Below are positions 44,731 to 57,496 of a stretch of DNA of 64,000 nt, one piece after another. The stretch covers positions 399,588 to 463,587 of the forward strand of contig NZ_HE998567.1 of NCBI RefSeq assembly GCF_000327285.1. The letters run 5' to 3'. Position 1 is the stretch's first letter. Each line of letters starts with the position of its first letter. This stretch comes from Holdemania massiliensis AP2 (GTDB taxonomy: Bacteria > Bacillota_I > Bacilli_A > Erysipelotrichales > Erysipelotrichaceae). The notes beneath the pieces were generated by a model. It saw only the letters and a list, made by a program, of their open reading frames with translations. It did not search any database and had not been told where the DNA came from. Both the position numbers and the translations under genes were made by a program.

Positions 44731-44759
44731 TTGACAACGAAGCGTAAATTCAGTAAGAT
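44731..44759 (+). promoter_or_regulatory. Strong promoter of the structured RNA
   Basis: A consensus TTGACA (44731-44736), 17-base spacer, and TAAGAT (44754-44759). A start near 44766 is expected, exactly where the structured RNA begins. Confidence 0.8.
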
Positions 44760-44765
44760 TCTATC

Positions 44766-44888
44766 AGGTCGAAGGACCTGGATTGATTCATCTGTTATTG
44801 TTTTTCCCCCACCCATTCAAACAATAATAGATCCCCCCCAAGAGATCGAATCAATTCTGATAAGGACATCTTCGGATGTTCTTTTTTT
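44766..44888 (+). ncRNA. Unassigned structured RNA with two C-rich single-stranded patches
   Basis: About 123 bases run from the promoter to a terminator. Hairpin 1: CAGGTC/GACCTG (44765-44780). Main stem: ATTGATTC (44782-44789) with GAATCAAT (44848-44855), stacked on a 14-bp inner stem (44790-44803 with 44819-44832, one G-U pair). The terminal loop contains CCCCCACCC (44806-44814), and a 15-base bulge on the 3' side has seven Cs (44833-44839). Terminator: GGACATC-TTCG-GATGTTC (44864-44881) and seven Ts. It may be a trans-acting RNA pairing with G-rich ribosome binding sites, or a regulatory leader for the NUDIX gene 24 bases beyond. I match it to no known family. Confidence 0.75.
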
Positions 44889-44911
44889 GATTTGAAGAAG
44901 GAGGAGAAGGC

Positions 44912-45436
44912 ATGCGGTGTCTTGGCGTTTTTGAAGATACAGTCGATCCAGAACAGCCGATTTTAACCCTGCGCAAAACAGCGCGGGTATTTGTCATCAA
45001 TCCGCAAGGGAAAGTCGGGATGATTCATGTCAAGGGAGAAGATGAGTTTGGCCGGCGTGATCATCTGGAAAGCTGCGGCGGCGGAATCGAGAAGGGAGAG
45101 AATCCCGTTCGGACCATGCTTCGGGAAGCCCGCGAAGAGCTGGGCGCCGTGCTGCGGGATTGGGTTGAATTGGGCTGGATCGAAGATGAATATCATCGGC
45201 TGCAGCGGCGCAATCACAGCACGTTTTTTGCGGCTCATTGTGAAGCTGACTTCTTGCCGAGAAACCTGACGCCGATGGAACGGGCGATGATGGCGGATCC
45301 GGTCTGGCTAAGTCCGCAGGAAATTCATCAACGGCTGGATCCTAAGAATAATCTGGGCATTGCGCTGCTGATCGGGCAACGTGATTTCTGCGCTTGGCAG
45401 GAATTGCTGCGGCGTAAAATCATAGTATTCAATTAA
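44912..45436 (+). CDS. NUDIX hydrolase
   Basis: This 174-residue hydrolase cleaves a nucleoside diphosphate linked to another moiety. The NUDIX box GGGIEKGENPVRTMLREAREELG fits G-x5-E-x7-R-E-x2-E-E-x-G. The N-terminal sheet (TARVFVINPQGKVGMIHV) and a downstream NHSTFFAAHCEADFLP strand complete the fold. Substrate specificity is not evident. The ribosome binding site GAAGGAGGAG directly follows the RNA terminator at 44864-44888, so expression depends on read-through of that structure or an unseen promoter. Confidence 0.88.
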   Translation: MRCLGVFEDTVDPEQPILTLRKTARVFVINPQGKVGMIHVKGEDEFGRRDHLESCGGGIEKGENPVRTMLREAREELGAVLRDWVELGWIEDEYHRLQRRNHSTFFAAHCEADFLPRNLTPMERAMMADPVWLSPQEIHQRLDPKNNLGIALLIGQRDFCAWQELLRRKIIVFN

Positions 45437-57271: not shown

Positions 57272-57277
57272 TAAATA

Positions 57278-57496
57278 AGCGATGAAAAGGAATAGTAATT
57301 CTTGAATCTGACCTTGAGAGAGCCGGTGGCAGGTGAAAACTGGCGGCAGATCAGAATGAACTGGCCTTGGAGCTGAATCTGAAAAGAAGGATTCCGTGAT
57401 TCCTGCGTTAAAGGAAAAAGAGGGCATAGGAAGATTCTTTCTGTGAACTAAGGTGGTACCGCGCGCTGACGTCCTTAGATTGAGGGCGTTTTTTGT
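57278..57496 (+). promoter_or_regulatory. T-box riboswitch, leucine specifier
   Basis: A long stem I region contains AGTA near 57296 and GAA followed by the specifier CTG (57361-57363), a leucine codon. AAGGATTCCGTGATTCC is the stem II/III area. The T-box TGGTACCGCG lies at 57454-57463. The terminator stem ACGTCC/GGGCGT (57469-57489) and six Ts follow. Uncharged tRNA-Leu would bind and prevent termination, raising leuS expression. Confidence 0.92.

Follow-up and report, generated by a model that had tools for sequence, protein, structure and literature searches.

We found that the window, that is, the whole 64,000-nucleotide stretch of Holdemania massiliensis AP2 DNA analyzed here, carries a small RNA of ~123 nt that is, as far as its predicted promoter and terminator define it, a stand-alone, promoter-driven and intrinsically terminated unit, and that recurs, as determined with covariance models (CMs), in 29 loci corresponding to 29 Erysipelotrichaceae genomes of 14 genera. 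The RNA family looks new, and its way of working is probably of a known kind, with trans action via C-rich seeds on G-rich ribosome-binding sites regarded as the most likely, a view that we hold with modest confidence. In the literature found, regulatory RNA in the Erysipelotrichaceae, a common gut family, is little described. The family-wide candidate, with strong covariation, a near-letter-perfect loop and no counterpart in Rfam 15, now offers a covariance model ready for use, a seed that can be tested and, as a named isolate for experiments, Holdemania filiformis DSM 12042. The features of the locus are as follows (G and L numbers below are our handles for genomes and loci).

44731 to 44759, + strand: putative promoter, with the -35 hexamer TTGACA (44731-44736), a 17-nt spacer and the -10 hexamer TAAGAT (44754-44759), 10 of 12 consensus positions
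44765 to 44888, + strand: small RNA transcript of ~123 nt; fold z of -4.5, CM match at 44762-44890, family in 29 genomes
44765 to 44780, + strand: 5' hairpin CAGGUC-GAAG-GACCUG of 6 bp, with compensatory changes in all 6 pairs
44781 to 44789, + strand: 5' strand of stem P1, GAUUGAUUC, pairing with 44848-44856 (fold and covariation)
44790 to 44803, + strand: 5' strand of stem P2, AUCUGUUAUUGUUU, pairing with 44819-44832 (fold and covariation)
44804 to 44818, + strand: C-rich loop UUCCCCCACCCAUUC, 15 nt, with the near-invariant core UUCCCCCACCCAU; proposed seed 1
44819 to 44832, + strand: 3' strand of P2, AAACAAUAAUAGAU (fold and covariation)
44833 to 44847, + strand: C-rich 3' bulge CCCCCCCAAGAGAUC, 15 nt with seven Cs; proposed seed 2
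44848 to 44856, + strand: 3' strand of P1, GAAUCAAUU (fold and covariation)
44862 to 44888, + strand: intrinsic terminator, with a 9-bp stem (44862-44883) capped by a UUCG loop and followed by a U tract that ends at 44888
44912 to 45436, + strand: NUDIX hydrolase gene (Pfam PF00293, E 2e-12), starting 23 nt past the U tract; a neighbor that does not define the RNA

The ends of the small RNA were set from the promoter (5') and from the terminator (3'), with a putative transcription start site at about 44765 ± 2, and we infer that it is transcribed in Holdemania. An earlier sequence-only reading of this DNA had claimed a consensus promoter, which was confirmed, and a complete unit of 123 bases, of which the length agrees with the putative start site but the parts were not complete, the 6-bp 5' hairpin having been missed. 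When the window was compared with the most diverged Holdemania, the -35 and -10 hexamers were identical at 12 of 12 positions and the spacer at 64%, and in most copies of subgroup A, described below, the TTGACA-17-TAnnAT pattern was found at a constant distance from the RNA. As in trans-acting sRNAs with C-rich regions, the predicted promoter and Rho-independent terminator are the RNA's own and independent of its neighbors. No closed reading frame was common to the homologues (29 copies), leaving the possibility of an encoded peptide unsupported.

The segment 44764-44887 was calculated to fold with a free energy of -38.3 kcal/mol (z -4.5), and none of 200 dinucleotide shuffles folded equally well; eight homologues folded one by one had the same general shape, with z values between -4.2 and -6.8. 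P1 (9 bp) is stacked on P2 (14 bp), resulting in 23 pairs, so that the coaxial stem claimed earlier stands but its length of 22 bp does not, and the C-rich loop, the bulge with its seven Cs and the UUCG-capped terminator were all present as had been described. The C-rich segments were unpaired in the conserved fold, both in unconstrained folds and in the conserved structure with its motif, as expected of a trans-acting sRNA with C-rich regions. In some genera, the second C patch may fold into a separate small hairpin, as modeled by single folds around the C run (UAAUC-CCCC-GAUUA in G101 and AUCU-UCCCCC-AGAU in G089).

The family was assembled with a series of CMs, R1 being built from the four Holdemania copies and already detecting the RNA in other genera, R2 from 10 sequences and R3 from 31 sequences; the last include a duplicate of G027 and a degenerate copy from G099, neither of which adds to the 29 loci. 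Weak CM matches to the terminator only were dropped, as the C loop was required. All four Holdemania genomes searched, among them H. filiformis DSM 12042 and Holdemania sp. Marseille-P2844, have one strong copy each. An exact stem-plus-loop pattern matched only the window genome among 395 genomes of the class; because the stem part of such a pattern covaries, the homologues escape it, and covariance models were therefore needed. A sequence-only MAFFT alignment of the cores left the stems unaligned and was discarded. In alignments fitted to the structure, which favors covariation, 37 of 38 pairs were changed on both sides, and 90% of the cells were paired, shuffles reaching 56% and slid registers no more than 44%; with a set of 9 distinct sequences, the respective values in alignments of this kind were 93% and 66% in shuffles. 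Thus, the stems, whose failure to covary had been named as an argument against the earlier reading, do covary. Compensatory changes extend to 8 of the 9 terminator pairs. The window and the most diverged Holdemania share 92% identity in the core of P1, P2 and the C patches, against 56% in the intergenic DNA upstream and 68% in the NUDIX coding sequence; in that pair, only about half of the 5' hairpin is identical, yet the hairpin is kept through compensatory changes.

The C-rich loop UUCCCC(C)ACCCAU was kept in all 29 copies despite the rewritten stems, its core UUCCCCCACCCAU being exact in 27 and lacking one C in the remaining 2, and a run of 3 to 7 Cs was found 15-21 nt after the loop motif in 29 of 29. 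A degenerate copy in G099 (L048, 380-530), with the loop UUACCACCCAUAA and the C run kept, represents a naturally occurring variant of the proposed seed. Two shapes were distinguished from sequences and single folds, and not from a tree: shape A, comprising most copies, has the 5' hairpin as well as a separate terminator, and shape B (five copies: G089, G009, G045, G054 and G017) apparently lacks the 5' hairpin and has the same core. In most B copies, the P1 stem runs almost straight into the U tract, and P1 may double there as the terminator. When R3 was run across the class and the phylum, no match outside the Erysipelotrichaceae had the loop motif, and the small RNA appears to be confined to this family within the range searched. 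No match was found in the phages and plasmids searched, and 53 pattern matches in viral contigs were chance-like when evaluated by CM (best E 0.63).

The claim that this structured RNA is unassigned was upheld, with overwhelming covariation and with no match to Rfam either around the RNA in the window or at the homologue loci scanned. At E of 10 or less, the RNA region had no credible match in Rfam, and at E of 1 or less, 20 homologue loci had nothing at the RNA; the gathering cut-off was not reached for any Rfam 15 family, including RsaE, 6S and the riboswitches. Over the whole window, Rfam 15 at gathering thresholds returned a T-box leader (57273-57479, + strand, RF00230, 130.5 bits) and an L21 ribosomal protein leader (1796-1870, + strand, RF00559, 46.8 bits) only, both of them elsewhere. 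The string CCCCCACCCAU was not found in the literature searched. The main text of the bacterial RNA-discovery surveys consulted refers to the Erysipelotrichia(ceae) only in passing and names neither NUDIX nor Holdemania; their supplementary motif lists may contain the RNA as an earlier, unnamed entry.

With regard to the mode of action, the 5' hairpin would probably protect the 5' end of the RNA, and the long stem would present two unpaired C-rich patches, namely the apical loop UUCCCCCACCCAU and the C run of the 3' bulge. These patches could pair in trans with ribosome-binding sites rich in G (UGGGGGA-like) on several mRNAs, by which translation would be blocked or mRNA decay changed. About half of the lineages have a NUDIX gene downstream, which at short distance would in addition be transcribed via partial read-through of the RNA's terminator. 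Pairing of the C patches with Shine-Dalgarno (SD) sequences, as the sequence-only reading had suggested, may be proposed by analogy: the anatomy of the present RNA, two C patches on a stable stem, is of the same kind as in IsrR and RoxS/RsaE, and we take SD pairing as the most likely mechanism. FsrA is a further trans-acting sRNA with C-rich regions, of the type of RoxS/RsaE and IsrR; judged by Rfam, the present RNA is a homologue of none of the three. In IsrR, a Fur-repressed sRNA of Staphylococcus, pairing of C-rich regions with SD sequences is a documented mechanism, and stem-loops with C-rich single-stranded regions in the loop and beside the stem, a Rho-independent terminator and a C run of variable length (4-7 in its CRR1) are found as in the present RNA (PMC9410917). 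Unlike IsrR, the Holdemania RNA comes from another taxon, has no Rfam match and consists of one long stem with a loop and a bulge, the loop being near-invariant over 13 nt. RoxS/RsaE of Bacillus and Staphylococcus likewise has several conserved C-rich regions and forms a family that extends across genera, and its unpaired C-rich regions pair with SD sequences (PMC4409812), a pairing that is shown there and proposed for the Erysipelotrichaceae RNA; the latter differs in having no Rfam match, a different fold and, in some members, cre-like boxes in contrast to control by ResDE. CsfG, an sRNA of the Bacillaceae, carries CU-rich stretches that are conserved, both in its terminal loops and between its helices, and was formerly taken for the leader of a neighboring gene (PMC3574147), and it differs in taxon and, again, in the lack of a Rfam match on the part of the present RNA; this likeness is one of description and not of a residue-by-residue comparison of the loops.

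A target search with the C patches, proposed as a check in the earlier reading, yielded no conserved mRNA target, either by exact complement or by the UGGGGGA...ATG pattern, the matches of which examined in other genera were mostly inside reading frames. Besides the RNA itself, exact complements GGGTGGGGGAA occurred twice in the window genome and once in H. filiformis; the one in H. filiformis alone is at a start codon, and the same complement is absent from its relatives. This one, a perfect complement of 11 nt, lies over the start region of a NusG-like gene, where the other Holdemania have kept just a G-rich ribosome-binding site. The NusG-like genes of Holdemania (L200-L205) have G-rich ribosome-binding sites, for example, AAAGGGGTGGGGGA-ATG, and are candidate targets of a C-rich sRNA.

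Among the other explanations, it seems very improbable that the hairpin arose by chance or that the locus encodes a divergent form of 6S or of another known RNA. Chance is excluded by the fold z values in the eight homologues together with the covariation; the long stem with its side bulge superficially resembles 6S RNA, but a canonical 6S RNA is present elsewhere in the same genome (53.6 bits, above the cut-off), and the locus has no Rfam match, including RF00013. It was also considered that the RNA could act in cis on the NUDIX gene, as a leader or riboswitch that attenuates transcription at the UUCG terminator. The NUDIX gene lies downstream of the RNA in 14 of the 29 genomes (the four Holdemania, G037, G080, G101, G647, G648, G649, G027, G033, G507 and G108), with a distance from the CM match of 7-26 nt in most and 63-236 nt in some, and where its start on the same strand is close behind the terminator (Holdemania, G037, G080, G101, G033 and relatives), transcription must pass the terminator. 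As the 23 nt between the U tract and the NUDIX gene leave little room for a promoter, the gene in Holdemania is probably transcribed by read-through of the RNA's terminator. However, the RNA is present without NUDIX beside it in the other 15 genomes, and it is thus not defined by NUDIX and not primarily a NUDIX riboswitch; 13 of these 15 were searched with the family's NUDIX protein, and none had a full-length orthologue, the weak partial matches being at E of 1e-6 or worse. The conserved association with a regulated downstream gene that marks riboswitches and cis-leaders is thus lacking, NUDIX being adjacent in 14 of 29. Moreover, the gene downstream of several RNA copies is convergent, visual inspection revealed no conserved antiterminator pairing, and ~100 extra nt separate the RNA terminator from NUDIX in H. 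filiformis and Marseille-P2844 (L004, 1663-1789, and its equivalent in L003), a segment missing in the other two Holdemania. A NUDIX leader is therefore improbable, and of the two options that the sequence-only reading had left side by side, the sRNA is favored over the leader by the comparative data.

A stronger competitor, which we nevertheless consider rather unlikely, is a protein-binding or decoy RNA, in which the near-invariant loop and the C run would be bound by a protein dedicated to them (or by a ligand or a single conserved RNA), and the RNA would titrate or activate that partner rather than pair with many mRNAs. The loop is kept almost letter for letter over 14 genera while the stems covary, the distance between the two C patches is nearly fixed, and no conserved mRNA target was found, all of which would fit such a function; a near-invariant loop of 13 nt is also long for an SD-pairing seed and would equally suit a protein or one conserved partner. 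On the other hand, repeated C-rich single-stranded patches are typical of Gram-positive SD-pairing sRNAs (PMC9410917, PMC4409812), and no candidate protein is known in this system. We give the same tentative, minority standing to the idea that the 13-nt loop and the C run serve to bind a single dedicated partner, be it a protein, a ligand or another conserved RNA, with NUDIX recruited behind the terminator in some genera. If true, it would represent a new functional class of bacterial RNA and not another SD-pairing sRNA.

Among the 15 genomes in which NUDIX is not adjacent, the RNA is flanked in G072 and G632 by a HAD gene on one side and the MnmM/MnmL tRNA-modification genes on the other, and in G030, G040, G576, G052 and relatives it precedes a convergent MnmL gene. 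A cre-like box was found just upstream of the -35 hexamer in six copies of three genera (G072 and G632; G037 and G080; G507 and G108; loci L036, L040, L021, L022, L047 and L049), with 1-2 mismatches of 14 to a B. subtilis cre consensus. The shuffle fractions were 0.00-0.04, about one such box being expected by chance in the 27 copies scanned. No cre-like box was found upstream of the Holdemania copies, and the boxes no more than hint that CcpA controls some members of the family. The copies of group B lie elsewhere, and two of them (L051 and L058) adjoin rubrerythrin and Fur/PerR-like genes, named by inspection, a neighborhood that by itself may suggest a connection with oxidative stress or iron.
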